NCBI GenBank assembly: GCA_016210005.1
Contig: JACQVA010000048.1
Location: 1 to 54,324, forward strand
From: Deltaproteobacteria bacterium
GTDB lineage: Bacteria > Desulfobacterota > Binatia > HRBIN30 > JACQVA1
Reading direction: 5' to 3'
Length of the DNA stretch: 54,324 bases
This document shows, piece after piece, positions 249-7,051 of this stretch. Positions within the stretch are counted from its first letter, which is position 1, and every line of letters begins with the position of its first letter. The notes beneath the pieces were generated by a model that saw only the letters and a program-made list of their open reading frames with translations, made no database searches and was not told the DNA's origin. The position numbers were made by a program, and so were the translations under genes.

Positions 249-2756
249 CTACTGTTGGGGCGTGACAACGTCGTAGTGAGCAAGACGTGTAGGCCGTGCC
301 GCCGCCTCGGCCGCTAACTGTTCGACGACCTGTTCGATCTTGCTCAACCGGTCGCGCAAGGCGGCGTTCTCGCTCGTCAGCTCGGTGTTCTCCCGGCGCA
401 GCTCACTGAGCACAACCTGATGCGCGCGCAGACTGTTGATCTGCTCGGCCTGCATTTGCTGCACCCGCTGCTGTTTCTGCACCTCATTGAGCAGCATGGG
501 CACGAGCAAGTGGTAGCGCACCACATTCGGCCGCCCTTCGTTGTCGGTCACGATCAACTCGGGCATGACCTGCGCGACTTCTTCGGCGATGAGGCCGTAC
601 TCGGCGTGACCCTCGGGATCGATCTCAGGCTTGTAGCGGAAGGCCACCGGGTGCAACTGCATCAGCTTGCTGCTGGTATCGCCAAGGTCGCGGATGTCGG
701 TCTTGTAGCGGCGCGACGAGGTGCTGGTGCCGAGTTGGCCCGATCCGTTGACGTACACCGTGCTGCCACCGCTGCTGGTCGCGCCGCTGATGCCGGCAAT
801 GAATGTCGCTGACTGTCCGCTCCCGATTCGGATGATGTTTGAATCGCCCGCCGTGCCACCGTGGCCGATCATGATGTTGTTGTTGCCCGTGGTGAGGTTC
901 ACGCCGGCGCCGTTGCCAAGGGCGGCGTTGCTGCTACCGCTCGTCAAATTGTAAAGCGCGGCTTGCCCCACGGCGGCGTTGTTGATGCCGGTGTCATTCT
1001 TGTAAAGGGCCTGGCGCCCAACGGCGGCATTCCAGGAGCCCGTCGTGTTGGCGGCCAGCGCGGAATGGCCGACGGCGACGTTGTCGCCTCCGCTCCCGGA
1101 GGTTGACAACGCCTGGGCGCCGACGGCGGTATTGCGGTTGGCCGTACTTCCCATGAGCGCACTGTGGCCGACGGCGGTGTTTTCGCTGCCGGTAGTGTTC
1201 CAATACAGCGCATTTCGGCCGACCGCGGTGTTGGAACTTCCGGACACGTTCAAATAGAGCGCGGTGACGCCCAAGACCGCATTCTCGCTGCCACTGGTGT
1301 TGCTGACCATCGCGCTGCTCCCGACTGCGCAGTTCGAAGCCCCGTTCATGTTGTACACGAGCGCGCCTGATCCGACGGCCGTGTTGTTCGATCCGGTGGA
1401 GTTGTTGGCGAGGGTACGGAAGCCAAATGCAGAGTTGCTCCCCGCGGCCGTGGTGTTGGTCAATGCGCCTGCACCAACGGCCGTGTTCTGATCGCCCGTG
1501 TTGAGAAGTTTGAGCGCCTCAGCGCCCACCGCGGTGTTGCCGCCGGCGGAGGTGTTGTTCGCCAGGGCTGAGGAGCCAACGGCCGTGTTGGAATCACCGG
1601 TATTATCCTCCAATGCACTGTCGCCGACTGCCACGTTCTGAGACCCGATGACATTATCGTTCAGCGCCAAGACCCCGACCGCGGTGTTGTTGCTGCCGGT
1701 GGTATTGTTCTGGAGCGCAGCCGAGCCAAGAGCGGAATTGTAGGTGCCCGTATCGTTCATTTGGAGGGCGGCCGCGCCGACGGCCGTATTGTCCGACGCG
1801 GTGGTGTTGCTGTTGAGCGCGTTCATGCCCACGGCGGTGTTGGTGCCACCCGTGCTGTTGTTGGTGAGTGCCCCGAAACCCACGGCGGTGTTGGCGTTCC
1901 CGGTCAGATTGCCGAACAGCGCATTCACGCCAAATGCGGAGTTGTTACTGCCGGTAGTATTCGTGTTCATGGCGGACAGACCTACTGCAGTGTTGGCGCC
2001 GCCCGTCGTGTTCGAAGAGAGTGCGTAGGCGCCGACCTGCGTGTTGCTGCCGCCGGTGTTCGTCCCGAAATTGATGTCCACGTTGCGCAACCCGCCATCC
2101 GCCACGTCAGCGCCAGTGATGGTACCGTCGACAATGTTCGACGACGTGACCTGCCCGCCGATCAGGGTCACTTCGAGTTGCGGTATTTGGCTCGTGCTGA
2201 TGTTCTCCTTGGAGTCGAGCTTGATGTTTAAGCCCACCCCAGCCGTCGGTACCAGCGCCAAGCCATTGTTGGTCAGCGACCCGTTGAGCCACGCCTTCAC
2301 CGCGTTGGTGACGTCGACGGTGATGAAGTCTTTCTTCTCTGCCGGCGTCACGGGTACGGCGGACTGCTCGGTGGTGCCCAGCGTCGGGGCCACGGCGTAG
2401 GTGACCGTCGATTCCGTCCATGCCGAGGTGAGCCGCACGACATCGAACGCGCCGGCGAGCAAGCCGGTCACGGTGTTGGGATACAGCGTCAGCATCGCCT
2501 TGGCGACGTCGTTGCCACCGGTCCCGCTGGGCAACACCGACAGATCGAATTGCACGTAGACGTTCTTGGTGGTGAGGCTGATTGGTGGCCCGGCCAGTTC
2601 GAGGCTGGTGGCAATGCCTTTGTTGCTGGTCGGGAGCGACGACACGGTGTGCGTGTCGCCGACGAGTGGCAGCAGGGTGGCCGCAGCGGGTTGCGCGAGC
2701 GAGCACAGTGCTGCGATCAAACATCCTAGGATCAGTGGGCGCGCTTGACGGGTCAT
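249..2756 (-). CDS. Modular surface protein: DNRLRE domain, YadA-type head repeats, S74 intramolecular chaperone
   Basis: The 835-residue product begins with a signal peptide (about 1-26, ending QPAAA). Residues about 30-200 resemble the DNRLRE family (YVQFDLSVLP; ITVDVTNAVKAWLNG), which is found in secreted adhesive proteins. From about residue 236 there are 23 near-perfect 17-residue repeats of the form xxNTAVGxxALxxNTTG plus a partial one, typical of trimeric YadA/Hep_Hag heads. From about 682 a peptidase S74 (endosialidase chaperone) domain follows; the motif SSRRYK keeps the Ser/Lys pair used for self-cleavage after trimer folding. The end is a Leu/Glu-rich coiled coil (about 755-822). 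I chose the ATG at 2756 because AAGGAGGGG lies just upstream and the signal peptide follows directly; an in-frame extension upstream to 2876 is unlikely. The gene stands alone downstream of a putative regulator. The ligand is unknown. Confidence 0.85.
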   Translation of the reverse strand: MTRQARPLILGCLIAALCSLAQPAAATLLPLVGDTHTVSSLPTSNKGIATSLELAGPPISLTTKNVYVQFDLSVLPSGTGGNDVAKAMLTLYPNTVTGLLAGAFDVVRLTSAWTESTVTYAVAPTLGTTEQSAVPVTPAEKKDFITVDVTNAVKAWLNGSLTNNGLALVPTAGVGLNIKLDSKENISTSQIPQLEVTLIGGQVTSSNIVDGTITGADVADGGLRNVDINFGTNTGGSNTQVGAYALSSNTTGGANTAVGLSAMNTNTTGSNNSAFGVNALFGNLTGNANTAVGFGALTNNSTGGTNTAVGMNALNSNTTASDNTAVGAAALQMNDTGTYNSALGSAALQNNTTGSNNTAVGVLALNDNVIGSQNVAVGDSALEDNTGDSNTAVGSSALANNTSAGGNTAVGAEALKLLNTGDQNTAVGAGALTNTTAAGSNSAFGFRTLANNSTGSNNTAVGSGALVYNMNGASNCAVGSSAMVSNTSGSENAVLGVTALYLNVSGSSNTAVGRNALYWNTTGSENTAVGHSALMGSTANRNTAVGAQALSTSGSGGDNVAVGHSALAANTTGSWNAAVGRQALYKNDTGINNAAVGQAALYNLTSGSSNAALGNGAGVNLTTGNNNIMIGHGGTAGDSNIIRIGSGQSATFIAGISGATSSGGSTVYVNGSGQLGTSTSSRRYKTDIRDLGDTSSKLMQLHPVAFRYKPEIDPEGHAEYGLIAEEVAQVMPELIVTDNEGRPNVVRYHLLVPMLLNEVQKQQRVQQMQAEQINSLRAHQVVLSELRRENTELTSENAALRDRLSKIEQVVEQLAAEAAARPTRLAHYDVVTPQQ

Positions 2757-2863: not shown

Positions 2864-3229
2864 CTATTCGCTCCATGTGATCGGTCCTTCCGGGCCCGGC
2901 AGGTACGCGCAGCGGTAGCCGGTCTTGATGCGGGTGGAGAGATGAAAGCCGAGCTGTGCGTCGTGCGTGCTGATTTTCTGCAACGCTGCCTTGAGGCGCT
3001 TGGTGACGGCCGTGCGCGCTTGTTCGCGACTGCTCTCATCCAACGGCTTGGGGCCCCCGGCCCAAGACGAGAGATCGAGGACCGAGTAGTACTCGCCCGG
3101 ATGGTGCAGGAGGTGCGCGAGATACTGCAGCCCCTTGCGGTCGCGGAGCCGCAACACGTTGCCTTGATAGGCGATCGTCCAATACTCGCCCTCGCGGCGG
3201 AAGGTGAACAAGTCCTGGCTGTCGGTCAT
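2864..3229 (-). CDS. Stand-alone homologue of the C-terminal domain of the neighbouring AAA ATPase
   Basis: This 121-residue protein has no signal peptide. It aligns almost end to end with the last ~190 residues of the 1149-residue ATPase next door. Shared blocks are FRREGEYWT, LRLRDRKGL-YLAHLL-HPG, AVTKRLK, IKTG and YLPGP followed by a Trp. The ATPase copy carries an extra ~75-residue Glu/Arg-rich insert that is absent here. Domains of this kind occur at the C-terminus of large AAA/TPR signalling ATPases; I know of no experimentally assigned function. The arrangement suggests a small regulatory or DNA-binding output protein, but that is inference. The ATG at 3229 begins where the homology begins; the reading frame continues upstream to 3370 through low-complexity Arg-rich sequence that overlaps a palindrome. 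Confidence 0.7.
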   Translation of the reverse strand: MTDSQDLFTFRREGEYWTIAYQGNVLRLRDRKGLQYLAHLLHHPGEYYSVLDLSSWAGGPKPLDESSREQARTAVTKRLKAALQKISTHDAQLGFHLSTRIKTGYRCAYLPGPEGPITWSE

Positions 3230-3347
3230 GCGATGTCGTTCCCGCAGGTTCCTCCCGGCTACGGCGGCAGCCGCTGCAAATAGGGGCGCGACGACCGGCG
3301 GCACATCGTGACGATCGGCGTCACGACGGTGCGCCCTTTTACGTTGA

Positions 3348-3393
3348 GGGGGCGTGACATCCGGCGTCACGATGTGACGCCGGCCACGCCCCC
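3348..3393. repeat. Long GC-rich palindrome upstream of the stand-alone domain gene
   Basis: The left arm at 3348-3370 (GGGGGCGTG ... CCGGCGTCAC) and the right arm at 3374-3393 (GTGACGCCGG ... CACGCCCCC) pair over almost their whole length around a 3-nt centre (GAT). A related half-site, GGCGTCACGACG, lies just before it near 3317. There is no T-run on either side, so a transcription-factor operator or an mRNA hairpin is more likely than a simple terminator. It lies about 120 bp upstream of the ATG at 3229. Confidence 0.6.
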
Positions 3394-3470
3394 ATCGATT
3401 TGGAATGATCTTCCGATCGTTCCGGGGCGAAAGGGCGCGAGAGGCTTTGCCGAAAGACTCGATGGGCAGC

Positions 3471-3546
3471 CGTCATACCGGCGCAAGCCGGTATCCAGTT
3501 GGGATGGTGGGCCTCCAACCTGGATTCCGGCTTTCGCCGGAATGAC
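3471..3546. repeat. REP/BIME-like doublet, copy 1
   Basis: Two inverted copies of a short palindromic element (CGTCATACCGGCGCAAGCC and its mirror ending CGCCGGAATGAC) flank about 20 bp of unrelated sequence. Each arm also folds on itself. This is the widespread 'CGTCATTCC...GGAATCCA' class of extragenic palindrome. Related copies lie at 34899-34975 (doublet) and 45342-45369 (single arm). Out-of-frame translations such as PAKAGIQ arise from it and are not real proteins. Confidence 0.8.
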
Positions 3547-3601
3547 AAATTGGAATGTCGAGCGGCTTGGGAAGCCGGCGGAAAGAGACGACGCTACGGC
3601 T

Positions 3602-6600
3602 TCACAGGACCCACTGCATCGGGCGGGTCGGCCCCGGAACGTAGGAGCAGAACAATCCTGTCTTGATCGTCTCGCGGAGGTAGCGGCCCAAATGCGGGTT
3701 GTGCTCGTCAATCCGATTGATGATTTCCTTGATCCGCTTGGTCACCGCGCTGCGGGCGCGTTCGGCGTGGCCGGCGGCGAGGCGGTTACGCCCGTTGAGC
3801 CCGACGGCGCCGGCGATCTCCTCGGTGAGGAACTCGATCTCCGCGCGCAACCGAGTGGCGCGGCCGGTGTCGGCGTGACCTTCGGCTTCATCGAGTTCTG
3901 CCCGCAAATCGGCGACGCGCTGCGCGTACTCCGCGCGGGCGCGCTGGTCCAACAGCGGCAAACCCTGATCCATCACGGAAGATGCGGGAGTCGTTGTCAC
4001 CGAAGTCTCGCCCAGCGTGACGAGGTCGAGCACATGAAACTCACGACCCGGATGACGGAGCAGGTGGGCGATGTAGCTCAGACCTTTGGCGTCGCGAAGA
4101 CGCAGCGGAGCGCCGTTGTCCGACACGGTCCAGTAGTCGCCTTCGCGGCGGAACACGGCCGTCGCACTGGCTTTGAGGTGGGCGGCGGCAACTTGTGCGG
4201 TGCCGGTTGTGTGGGCTGCGCCGGCCAATCGGAGCGCTTCGCTCTGCACAACGGAGGCGATCAACTCGGAGGCCTGCTGTTCCAGTGCGCCGGCGCCGAG
4301 TTCTCGCGCCGTAGCCAGCACCGCATCCAGCCGCGTGCGCGCCTGTGCCGCATCGTCTGGCTGCCGCCGCGCCAGCAGCATGCGTGCGTACGCGAGTTGG
4401 GTGCGCGCTGCGAACAGCGGCATCCCCATTCGGCGATACATGGCCAGCGCGTCGTCGAAATGTTGCACTGCCGTGTCCCAGCGCTGCATCGTGGCGGCCA
4501 GCAAACCGAGCGGATGCGAGGCCGAGCCGAAACAGATGAAGGTGTACGCGGTGACGATGTTCCGTCCCGCATAGGGGAGGAGCAGCTCGTACAACGTGGG
4601 GGCGCGCGCCGCATCGCCCAACGCCGCGCACACCTCGGCGAGCAATGCGACCGTGAGGCTGGCGGCTTTGGCCCCCCGCTTCATCGCGGCGAAGTCGTCG
4701 ATGGCGATCCGCTCGAACTCGCTGCGAGCCGCGACCTGACGACCCAACTCGCTCAGCACGTAGATGAAGATGGACCGAAACCCGACGGCGCGAACATGTC
4801 GATCGGCCGCGGCGCGGAATGCGGGTTCGACTTCTGCGAGGCGGCCCTGTTCGCGGCAGACTTGGAGCAGTTGGAGCCAGAGCATCTGGAAGGCCCCCTC
4901 GCGGTTGACCTGCTGCCCGATCGCAAACGCCTCGTGCGCCAGCTGTTCACATTCCGCCAGTCGTCCCGCCAGCATCGCGCGCACGGCCCGCAGGTGGGTC
5001 GCCTGACCGAGCCACACCGGTTGGCGGATGCGCGCGGCATCGCCCGCCTGTGCTTCGACCTCACGGCGAAACGCATCGCCCTCTCCCAACTCCAGCAAGT
5101 CGCGCACGCGCAGCTCGCGACACAACATGATGAGGTTGGTGTCGTGGGTGAGCGCGGCCGCGGCCATTGCTTCGGTGGACACGGCGGCGCGCTCTTCAAT
5201 GTTCGAGGAGCCTCCCAGCACCCAATGGCGGGCGAGCAACGCCTCGGCCAGCGCACCAGCATCTCCCAGCCTGCGCGCCAGGGCGACGGCCTCGACGGTG
5301 AGTTGCCCGGCGCGAATTCGACTGGCTCCACCGTCTGCGCTGAGTGCGGTGGCGAGTTGCGCCGCGGTTCTGGCGCGCAGCGCGCTCTCCTGATCTCCGA
5401 GCGCAGCGAAGGCTTCTTCCAGGAGCGCAAGCAGCTCCTCGTCTTTCGCGCCGATCGCAAACCCTTCGTGGCCGTCGGCAATCGCCGCACGGGCAAGGAA
5501 ATCCGGACGGCCCAATCGGCGCGCAATCGCGGCGAGGCGTTGATGGGTGTCGCGTGCCCGGTCGCGTTGGCCGGCGCGTTGCTGGGCATGGGCAAGGCAC
5601 AGCAGCACCTCGCAGCGCTCTTCGTCGGCGCCGGGCGTGGCGGCGTGGAGCACTCGATCCGCCAGTTCGTACAAGCGCACCGCCTCTTCATAGGCCAGGA
5701 GCGCCAGGGCACGATCCCCGGCGCGGCGCGCGTAGGCGACCGCCTTCGCACCGTCCGCATCGCCATCCGCCTCGGCGAAATGGTAGGCCAACTCGGCGAC
5801 TCGTTCGGCCGCATCCGGCAGCTGCTCGATCGCGTTCCCCACCGCGCGGTGCAAGTGCCGGCGCGATGTGTCCGGAATGGCTTCGTAGAGCGTCTCCCGA
5901 ATGAGCGCGTGCGCGAACCGATAGCGGCCGCTCGCGGTGCGAAGCACAATGCGGGCGGTCACCGCCTCCTGCACGACCGCGCACGTGGCGCCGGTAGCGC
6001 GCTCGACGACGTCGGTTAGGAAATCTCGCCCGATTACTGCGGCAATCTGAAGCGTATCGAGACAGGCTCGGGAGAGCGGCCGCAAACGGCGCTGAATGAA
6101 GGCGCGCACGTTTTCGGGCACGCCGATGGCCGTCACGTCGGCACCATCCGCCGCATCGAGCCCGCGCTCGCTCAGCAGCGCCCGCACGAACTCGCTGAGA
6201 AGAAACGGATTGCCTTCCGTGCGTTGATGCAGCGAGGCAACCAGCGCGTCGCTGGGCGGGCCGACAAAGACCCGCCGTACGTACTCCGACACTTCCGCGG
6301 CAGACAGCCCGGTCAGTTCGAGGTGCACACATCCCGACACCCGCGCCAATTCGAGCAGCGCGTCGGCCAGCGGCGTGCCCGGCGCGGCGCCGACGGGGCG
6401 ATATGTGGCGACGATCAGGACGGGAACGTCTTGCAGTTCGCGGGCAACAAAACACAACAATTGCAGCGACGACGCATCAGCGCCCTGGAGGTCGTCGAAC
6501 ACGAGCACCAGCGCGGTGCGTTCGGCTACGCCGCGGATCAAGCGCGCAACGGCGTCGAACAGCCGGAACCGATTGTCGGCCGATTCGGTTGGGCAGTGCG

Positions 6601-7051
6601 AATCCGCCTCGAAGATGCCGGGATCGAGGTGCGCCAGGAGCCCCGTGTCCGCCCCAAGCGCGCGGCGCACGAGCGCCTGGTCTCTGGCGCAGGCGCGAAT
6701 GACTTGCACCCAGGGCCAGAAGGCCGGCGCTCCTTCGCCCTCGTAACAACGGCCCCAGATGATGCGGGCGCCGGCGGCGCGCGCCGCCGCGGCAACCTCT
6801 TCCGCCGTGCGGGTCTTCCCCATCCCCGGTTCGCCGCGCAGCAACACCAAGCGGGCGCGCCCCGCAAAGGCTTCGCCGGCGACGGCCCGCATCCGCGCCA
6901 ACTCGCCCTCGCGTCCGACGAACACGTCGGCAGTCTGTCGCGCAGTCACGGGGGCACTCATGGTCGCCCTCTTTGCACTACCGCGCACCCCGTCGTCAAC
7001 AAGACGGGCCGCTTCATTACGGCTGCCATTTGCGGAGCTTCGAACTCTCAC
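3602..7051 (-). CDS. AAA-16/TPR signalling ATPase with conserved C-terminal domain
   Basis: The 1149-residue cytoplasmic protein has an AAA_16/MalT-like ATPase module at about 45-400. Walker A is GEPGMGKT (73-80), and Walker B is VLVFDDLQGAD near 185. A long helical, TPR-like region (about 420-930) rich in Ala/Leu follows, then a C-terminal domain (about 955-1149: FRREGDYWT, LRLRDAKGLSYIAHLL, AVTKRIKEI, YVPGP). The same C-terminal domain is encoded alone by the next gene downstream. Proteins of this STAND-like layout act as ligand- or protein-responsive regulators; the signal here is unknown. A GTG start at 7051 is preceded at 7-nt spacing by AGGAGG. A second possible start, the ATG at 6961, lies directly before the ATPase module. 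A long antisense frame across the gene is a codon-bias shadow. Confidence 0.8.
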   Translation of the reverse strand: MRVRSSANGSRNEAARLVDDGVRGSAKRATMSAPVTARQTADVFVGREGELARMRAVAGEAFAGRARLVLLRGEPGMGKTRTAEEVAAAARAAGARIIWGRCYEGEGAPAFWPWVQVIRACARDQALVRRALGADTGLLAHLDPGIFEADSHCPTESADNRFRLFDAVARLIRGVAERTALVLVFDDLQGADASSLQLLCFVARELQDVPVLIVATYRPVGAAPGTPLADALLELARVSGCVHLELTGLSAAEVSEYVRRVFVGPPSDALVASLHQRTEGNPFLLSEFVRALLSERGLDAADGADVTAIGVPENVRAFIQRRLRPLSRACLDTLQIAAVIGRDFLTDVVERATGATCAVVQEAVTARIVLRTASGRYRFAHALIRETLYEAIPDTSRRHLHRAVGNAIEQLPDAAERVAELAYHFAEADGDADGAKAVAYARRAGDRALALLAYEEAVRLYELADRVLHAATPGADEERCEVLLCLAHAQQRAGQRDRARDTHQRLAAIARRLGRPDFLARAAIADGHEGFAIGAKDEELLALLEEAFAALGDQESALRARTAAQLATALSADGGASRIRAGQLTVEAVALARRLGDAGALAEALLARHWVLGGSSNIEERAAVSTEAMAAAALTHDTNLIMLCRELRVRDLLELGEGDAFRREVEAQAGDAARIRQPVWLGQATHLRAVRAMLAGRLAECEQLAHEAFAIGQQVNREGAFQMLWLQLLQVCREQGRLAEVEPAFRAAADRHVRAVGFRSIFIYVLSELGRQVAARSEFERIAIDDFAAMKRGAKAASLTVALLAEVCAALGDAARAPTLYELLLPYAGRNIVTAYTFICFGSASHPLGLLAATMQRWDTAVQHFDDALAMYRRMGMPLFAARTQLAYARMLLARRQPDDAAQARTRLDAVLATARELGAGALEQQASELIASVVQSEALRLAGAAHTTGTAQVAAAHLKASATAVFRREGDYWTVSDNGAPLRLRDAKGLSYIAHLLRHPGREFHVLDLVTLGETSVTTTPASSVMDQGLPLLDQRARAEYAQRVADLRAELDEAEGHADTGRATRLRAEIEFLTEEIAGAVGLNGRNRLAAGHAERARSAVTKRIKEIINRIDEHNPHLGRYLRETIKTGLFCSYVPGPTRPMQWVL

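Follow-up and report, generated by a model that had tools for sequence, protein, structure and literature searches.

Why should the gene of a signalling ATPase lie beside a small gene that encodes a free-standing counterpart of the ATPase's C-terminal domain? This question is raised by positions 2,864 to 7,051 of a 54,324-nucleotide stretch from a Deltaproteobacteria bacterium (NCBI GenBank assembly GCA_016210005.1, contig JACQVA010000048.1). The whole stretch, here called the window, is contig C48 of a 5.9-Mb genome with 97.6% completeness. We consider it likely that the ATPase is a signal-dependent transcription factor with the C-terminal domain as its DNA-binding output, and that the small protein acts at the same operator of a secreted-protein operon. 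The genes and domains concerned are as follows.

3602-6961 (ATG 6961; alternative GTG 7051), minus strand: STAND-type ATPase gene, AAA_16 match at 4e-27, codon-usage start at 6961
6410-6922, minus strand: AAA_16 NTPase domain of the ATPase, residues 44-214 counted from GTG 7051
3605-4177, minus strand: C-terminal domain of the ATPase, a predicted winged helix with insert (AlphaFold predicted local distance difference test (pLDDT) 87.3, predicted template modelling score (pTM) 0.64; best VIA match BaeR, Z 9.1)
3803-3946, minus strand: predicted helical-hairpin insert between helices 2 and 3 (model helices 78-100 and 104-125)
2864-3229 (ATG 3229; upstream starts possible), minus strand: stand-alone gene of a 121-aa predicted winged-helix protein (AlphaFold pLDDT 91.4, pTM 0.82)

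The small protein is homologous to the ATPase C-terminus, with 46% identity, and lacks an insert of about 71 residues. A three-row profile of small proteins matched the ATPase C-terminus in two blocks flanking the insert, with E values of 6.8e-17 and 9.3e-19. The original prediction had described a block-by-block match without a 75-residue insert, and both points were borne out, the insert being slightly shorter here. Among full-length rows, the insert length is bimodal, at -7 to 17 or 58 to 92 residues, and because the lengths fall into two groups we regard the two domain forms as real. The insert-free form is found at the end of large proteins too, both in Pseudonocardiales (L050, L051) and within the class (L119, L116), and small frames bearing the insert exist (L118, L121, L077).

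An AlphaFold run on 63 sequences for the small protein gave a model with three strands, helix 1, helix 2, a long helix 3, a short helix 4 and a wing, in this order. When this model was compared with the PDB by VIA-align, all 50 matches listed were of the OmpR/PhoB type, the best being GlnR (8hml_B; Z 9.1, root-mean-square deviation 2.6, 92 residues), and the first Foldseek matches were OmpR-family effector domains (probability 0.99). The top VIA matches of the ATPase form were also of the OmpR/PhoB type, and its insert was modelled as a hairpin in the loop which, according to an extract of PMC3973317, contacts the RNA polymerase sigma in PhoB. The homology, the predicted fold and the position of the insert are computed results. 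Based on these models, the domain is probably an OmpR/PhoB-type winged helix and hence a candidate DNA binder, a fold of the nucleic-acid-binding kind that had been proposed for it.

The domain is found at the end of larger proteins as well. Among 41 fused proteins, AAA_16 occurs in 29, TPR_12 in 20, and REC, alpha/beta hydrolase and guanylate cyclase in 2 each; in L051, the domain is combined with a cyclase and NB-ARC. No DNA-binding family was found in these 41 proteins among the 25 of 43 Pfam families listed. Since the domain stands behind REC, STAND-type NTPase and cyclase modules, it is at the expected place of a DNA-binding output, and this position and the winged-helix model support the earlier suggestion of a functional output module. 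The window ATPase itself has a P-loop NTPase and superstructure-forming repeats, as in STAND NTPases; its AAA_16 match is above the Pfam cut-off, and TPR_12 (0.0016), NACHT and nSTAND3 are below theirs. In the same genome, three proteins (L130-L132) carry a canonical N-terminal Trans_reg_C ahead of a similar NTPase.

Some further architectures were observed. REC is joined to the insert-bearing domain in L056 (5332-6594) and L066 (5401-6573), an OmpR-like architecture with the new domain, and an alpha/beta-hydrolase fold is joined to the domain in L065 (5050-6606) and L067 (5002-6618), one from a Proteobacteria metagenome-assembled genome (MAG) and one from a Binataceae MAG. The window ATPase (3602-7051) also matches TIGR03903, a TOMM kinase/cyclase fusion family, at 2.8e-40 with 138 bits, the family cut-off being far higher at 706.

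A shared DNA element, GTCAC-N3-GTGMC-N7-GTCACGCC, is a candidate site for this domain. The window holds two copies.

3351-3378, minus strand: operator-like element copy 1, GTCACATCGTGACGCCGGATGTCACGCC, exact pattern match at 3352-3376
3285-3312, minus strand: operator-like element copy 2, match at 3286-3310 with one mismatch to the pattern

Copy 1 lies inside the palindrome at 3348-3393 and copy 2 beside it. This palindrome had been put forward as a possible binding site, and it does hold the element that is seen upstream of small genes and by domain genes elsewhere. The element stands upstream of five of the seven small genes of the window's order. It was first spotted in upstream regions and then tested on six of these genes (three in the window genome G000, one in G271 and two in G267), the seventh, in G261, having been set apart before the motif search. 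De novo expectation-maximization (EM) on the six 200-bp upstream regions gave a median log-likelihood of 63.5 over 20 runs, which none of 739 control sets exceeded (mean 47.1, standard deviation 2.5, maximum 57.8); single real runs from 40 starts ranged from 51.6 to 66.4, so that the lowest fell below the control maximum. In a first control run, the pool of which held overlapping loci, 1 of 100 control sets was above the real value, and the 739 sets were drawn after regions sharing 25-mers had been removed. In a leave-one-out test with 20-mers chosen by eye beforehand, none of 170 control regions reached the held-out site for five of the six loci, the window included. A looser 20-mer pattern had 19 matches in the window genome against 16 for the reversed pattern; eight of the 19 were intergenic, and four of these eight lay ahead of three small genes. 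An order-wide search with one mismatch gave mostly noise.

At G267:C108, diverged elements of a similar kind, a GAAC-type palindrome with GTTACGCC, are present in the promoters of the small gene and of the next secreted gene. In L109, variant elements with a GAAC/GTTC palindrome and a GTTACGCC right arm were seen at about 5980-6012 and at 6547-6580, ahead of a small gene and the next secreted gene, and L124, L142 and L135 carry a similar variant. The sequences of these variants suggest that there may be specificity classes.

Across the 148 genomes of the class, the exact pattern had 18 matches in 14 genomes, and the reversed pattern had 4. Four of the 18 are inside genes (G249, G253:C107, G273, G325) and 14 are intergenic, one of them overlapping a predicted gene end by 10 bp. 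Nine of the 14 lie within 1 kb of a domain gene; by simple arithmetic, flanks of 1 kb on about ten domain genes correspond to some 0.3% of the window genome. Three of the nine are near stand-alone genes used for the derivation (G000:C48, G271:C16, G267:C258). Among the 11 intergenic sites outside the derivation, six are within 1 kb of a domain gene, all near fused genes: directly after the gene in G211:C109, G213:C20 (twice), G092:C2 and G253:C126, and about 0.9 kb off in G263:C4, where the site stands before a convergent neighbour. A home-made heuristic or inspection by eye was used to judge signal peptides, and a home-made codon-usage caller to find genes; each misjudges some cases. By eye, the immediate next gene is secreted for eight sites (G263, G211, G213 twice, G092, the first G056 site, and G290 and G291, which are near-identical loci), and at the three stand-alone-gene sites a co-directional secreted gene comes later. 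A beta-helix fragment follows the second G056 site, and a CRP-like gene follows the G253:C126 site. An exact element was also seen in the window genome at G000:C38 (L207 4160-5667), about 660 bp before a secreted-protein gene and with no domain gene near; it is a possible trans target.

A held-out test gave a similar picture over 94 domain genes, 80 of them outside the training loci, when 500 bp downstream were scanned with the 99th percentile of the controls as the cut. The element was found downstream of 18 of the 80 genes and of 3 of 253 controls (p 1e-9). A first scan had given 0 of 80 above the 99% cut because genes adjoining domain genes, and with them the elements, were among its controls; at the 95% cut it gave 10 of 80 (p 0.015). 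For the final scan, controls closer than 2.5 kb to a domain gene were removed. The next gene was co-directional, with the site before it, for 17 of the 18 genes with a site and co-directional for 36 of the 62 without (p 0.003), and it was secreted-like for 11 of 18 and 15 of 62, respectively (p 0.005). De novo EM on 77 non-training loci returned accnntGTtCCnncnntTttcACGCC, in which the layout is the same, and Chloroflexota and Actinomycetota were also represented among the top sites.

Downstream of the small gene, the window has a candidate target.

249-2756, minus strand: secreted repeat protein gene (DNRLRE domain at 2166-2657, Peptidase_S74 at 555-719)

Its product has a DNRLRE domain (NF033679, 7.5e-22), a Peptidase_S74 domain (PF13884, 1.2e-12), long repeats and a signal-peptide-like start by the heuristic. 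The small gene had been described as lying directly upstream of the gene of a large adhesive surface protein; it does lie directly upstream of this large gene, with a gap of 107 bp that includes the ribosome-site-like sequence AAGGAGGG ahead of the ATG. The ATPase gene and the small gene are both open and run in the same direction. For the ATPase, the codon-usage caller makes ATG 6961 a likelier start than GTG 7051, and the start of the small gene is uncertain, at 3304 in one setting and 3229 in another. The ATPase gene and the small gene are separated by inverted repeats of the GTCATTCCGGCGAAAGCCGGAATCCAGG type, similar to repetitive extragenic palindromes (REP-like), at 3475-3552; REP-like repeats of this type also separate the small gene and the secreted gene in C69 (L018, about 6840-6930).

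Among the ten stand-alone short genes, the next co-directional gene looks secreted for five (window, C69, C255, G271:C16, G267:C108). Besides the window protein, the products are a repeat protein in C69, a repeat surface protein in C255 and, by eye, a beta-helix type protein in G271:C16, where the two genes join as TAAATG. The product in G267:C108 passes the signal-peptide heuristic only at a looser cut, and the second gene on encodes a protein that by eye resembles the DNRLRE/S74 protein of the window. In G267:C258, a GAF-LuxR-like gene intervenes after the small gene. Both the window and C69 have a domain ATPase directly upstream of the small gene, and in G267:C108 one gene lies between the two; thus, as had been expected, the stand-alone and fused forms co-occur elsewhere, in C69 of the same genome and in G267:C108. 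When the gene after a fused gene was co-directional, it had a signal peptide in 15 of 27 cases, compared with 58 of 164, a weak difference (p 0.038). That the element is conserved and is linked to domain genes and secreted-protein genes is likewise a computed result. The window genome has a second DNRLRE/S74 protein on C14 (L180 1574-8135). Ahead of it are a further secreted repeat protein and a regulator whose C-terminus is, by eye, LuxR-type; the layout is the same with a different DNA-binding type.

In the window genome, the small-protein query found three stand-alone copies and seven larger frames, a very weak match on C220 (E 0.5) being left out of the count. Domain matches occurred in 6 of 198 genomes of a phylum sample and in 59 of 148 genomes of the class, where seven genomes hold the ten stand-alone short genes. 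When 84,980 species were scanned in a pattern-limited search, 31 loci were obtained. They belong to Actinomycetota, Chloroflexota, Dormibacterota, Candidatus Binataceae and MAGs that carry the label Deltaproteobacteria or Proteobacteria. A search of a viral collection gave one weak partial match. The Pseudonocardiales insert-free forms (L050, L051, L053) have in common a convergent gene of about 130 aa just downstream of the domain gene, which by eye we take to be SnoaL-like. Several domain genes (L134, L158, L161, L148) are no more than about 1 kb from the end of a contig, and assemblies broken by repeat-rich neighbours may be the reason.

The small gene had been regarded as a copy of its own neighbour's C-terminus. 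The homology stood, and the gene is, on its sequence, a paralogue of the ATPase domain; descent from the neighbour was not favoured. In the best tree, of 74 domains, the partner of the window small protein is the C255 small protein (97/84), and that of the window ATPase domain is the C247 ATPase (100/97). The approximately unbiased test did not reject a pairing of the window neighbours (p 0.285), so that this origin is permitted and unproven. On starred branches of this tree, the label 'short and alone', given to ten rows of which one (L053) is an open-ended fragment, changes at least two times; therefore, such genes arose or were lost more than once.

We propose that the domain would serve as the DNA-binding output in a family of transcription regulators that act locally. 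When fused to a STAND-type NTPase with TPRs, to REC or to a cyclase, it would be switched by a signal, and when alone it would be a small, always-competent binder; the predicted operator would often lie in the gap separating the regulator gene and its target. In the window, the proposed order is the ATPase, two operator copies, the small regulator and the secreted DNRLRE/S74 repeat protein. The NTPase/TPR part would sense the signal, and the winged helix would take it to the element between the ATPase gene and the target, so that the ATPase acts on the promoter of the small-gene/secreted-protein operon. The element precedes the small and secreted genes both in the window and in C69, so that the ATPase would control production of the small protein; the latter, made from its own operon, may act on the same operator as feedback, without sensor and hairpin. 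DNA binding, the element as cognate site, control of the ATPase by nucleoside triphosphates, the operon, the feedback and the sign of regulation are what we infer here. We also offer, tentatively, a wider proposal: these may be widespread uncatalogued regulators, with a signal-switched NTPase and a winged helix bearing a hairpin in its transactivation loop, many having their own three-half-site operator in the gap to the controlled, often secreted, gene, and insert-free offspring inside the operon may compete with the ATPase as a feedback brake on surface-protein expression.

Several results weigh against a DNA-binding regulator of this kind. Regarding the domain, Pfam and NCBIfam gave no family for the small protein at E values up to 1, PF00486 included; the Foldseek E value of 0.017 is modest; and at the profile level the domain is only weakly similar to the canonical winged-helix domains that this genome encodes (hhalign E 8e-4, probability 24%). 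When the PDB was searched by sequence, using the small protein or a 63-row profile, the matches were due to chance or were helical matches to the insert, and these were rejected. Regarding the element, 62 of the 80 held-out domain genes have none downstream at the 99% cut, and reverse-strand matches occur for 6 of the 80, somewhat frequent, as would be expected for a partly palindromic element. No domain gene is near five of the 14 exact sites in intergenic DNA, a later scan found no element at the G261 small gene, and the leave-one-out test fails for G267:C108, where 40 of 170 controls reach the site. In the EM on 77 loci, likelihoods were no higher than those of control sets, whose motifs look like coding periodicity; therefore, the agreement of the motif and not the likelihood is the evidence from that run. 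Finally, the next gene is not secreted for four of the ten stand-alone short genes (G213, G209, G261, G257), and an element scan of three of these found none.

Some of these results would also be expected if the element were a bystander, that is, the site of another regulator or a repeat element near these genes by chance. The exact intergenic sites with no domain gene near (G000:C38, G056:C3 twice, G290, G291) and the REP-like repeats nearby in the window (3475-3552) fit this explanation. Nevertheless, it is specifically at domain genes that the element is enriched, in several families of the class, with more degenerate elements in Actinomycetota and Chloroflexota loci, the orientation is mostly one way (18 against 6 of 80), and the element was not found beside the C14 S74 paralogue, which has the LuxR-type regulator. 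Considering also that the orphan sites may be trans targets, we regard a bystander as unlikely. Decay of the small gene, which would then be a functionless remnant derived by truncation from a paralogous ATPase C-terminus, is more improbable still. On the one hand, the small copy in G213:C69 lacks a usual start codon ahead of the conserved N-terminal part, and the repeated changes of the 'short and alone' label would suit decay. On the other hand, seven positions are invariant across 18 short forms, five small genes of the order have the conserved upstream element, and the spacing to the next gene is tight, as in the TAAATG of G271 or the 107 bp with a ribosome-site-like sequence in the window. 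STAND proteins often sense via their C-terminal parts, and nSTAND profiles weakly match some members; a helical hairpin is also a plausible protein contact. The domain could then be a protein-docking or sensing module of a signalling or defence ATPase instead of a DNA binder, which we consider very improbable in view of the OmpR/PhoB fold, the REC fusions and the linked element. PADLOC likewise gave no family for the three window proteins, and hence no match to a catalogued defence model such as anti-phage STAND or Avs-like systems. Accordingly, we retain the DNA-binding regulator and its operator as the likely reading of this locus.

In summary, the C-terminal domain, for which Pfam and NCBIfam gave no model, now has a predicted fold, a predicted operator and likely targets. 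A single binding experiment could therefore test the family, and for some other members the DNA downstream of the gene shows the likely target. The proposal points to a possible way in which little-studied bacteria control the production of costly secreted repeat proteins. A question that follows is what role a helical hairpin has in the loop that contacts sigma in PhoB. Among known systems, the OmpR/PhoB-type effector domains (Trans_reg_C, PF00486) are alike in predicted fold and topology, the small-protein model having their N-terminal beta sheet, three helices and wing, and the domain stands behind REC in two homologues here. However, it has no Pfam match and weak profile similarity to Trans_reg_C, and its commoner form has a modelled hairpin of 58-92 residues in the loop reported, in the extract of PMC3973317, to contact sigma. 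With the LAL/MalT-like STAND regulators, the ATPase has in common the NTPase, the TPR-like region and a C-terminal DNA-binding module (predicted here), whereas the C-terminal winged helix here replaces the LuxR-type helix-turn-helix, of which there was no match at E values up to 1; this comparison draws on titles and abstract beginnings. SARP/AfsR and the regulators with an N-terminal winged helix-turn-helix (wHTH), AAA_16 and TPR also combine a winged helix with NTPase and TPR, but their winged helix is N-terminal and canonical and that of the ATPase is C-terminal; the N-terminal wHTH and BTAD of SARP/AfsR had no match in the ATPase at E values up to 1. In the titles and abstract beginnings searched, no description of the domain or the element was found, and one may still be published. 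As far as these sources go, the parts are known (STAND regulators, OmpR-type winged helices, local operators), and their combination appears new, with an unnamed domain, an insert at a loop of known function and a predicted operator. Stand-alone autoregulated regulators in an operon with their target are a known kind, and here too a small gene for a predicted DNA-binding protein comes first with an operator-like element upstream; the difference is that in this locus the domain and the element are common to the small gene and the neighbouring sensor ATPase.

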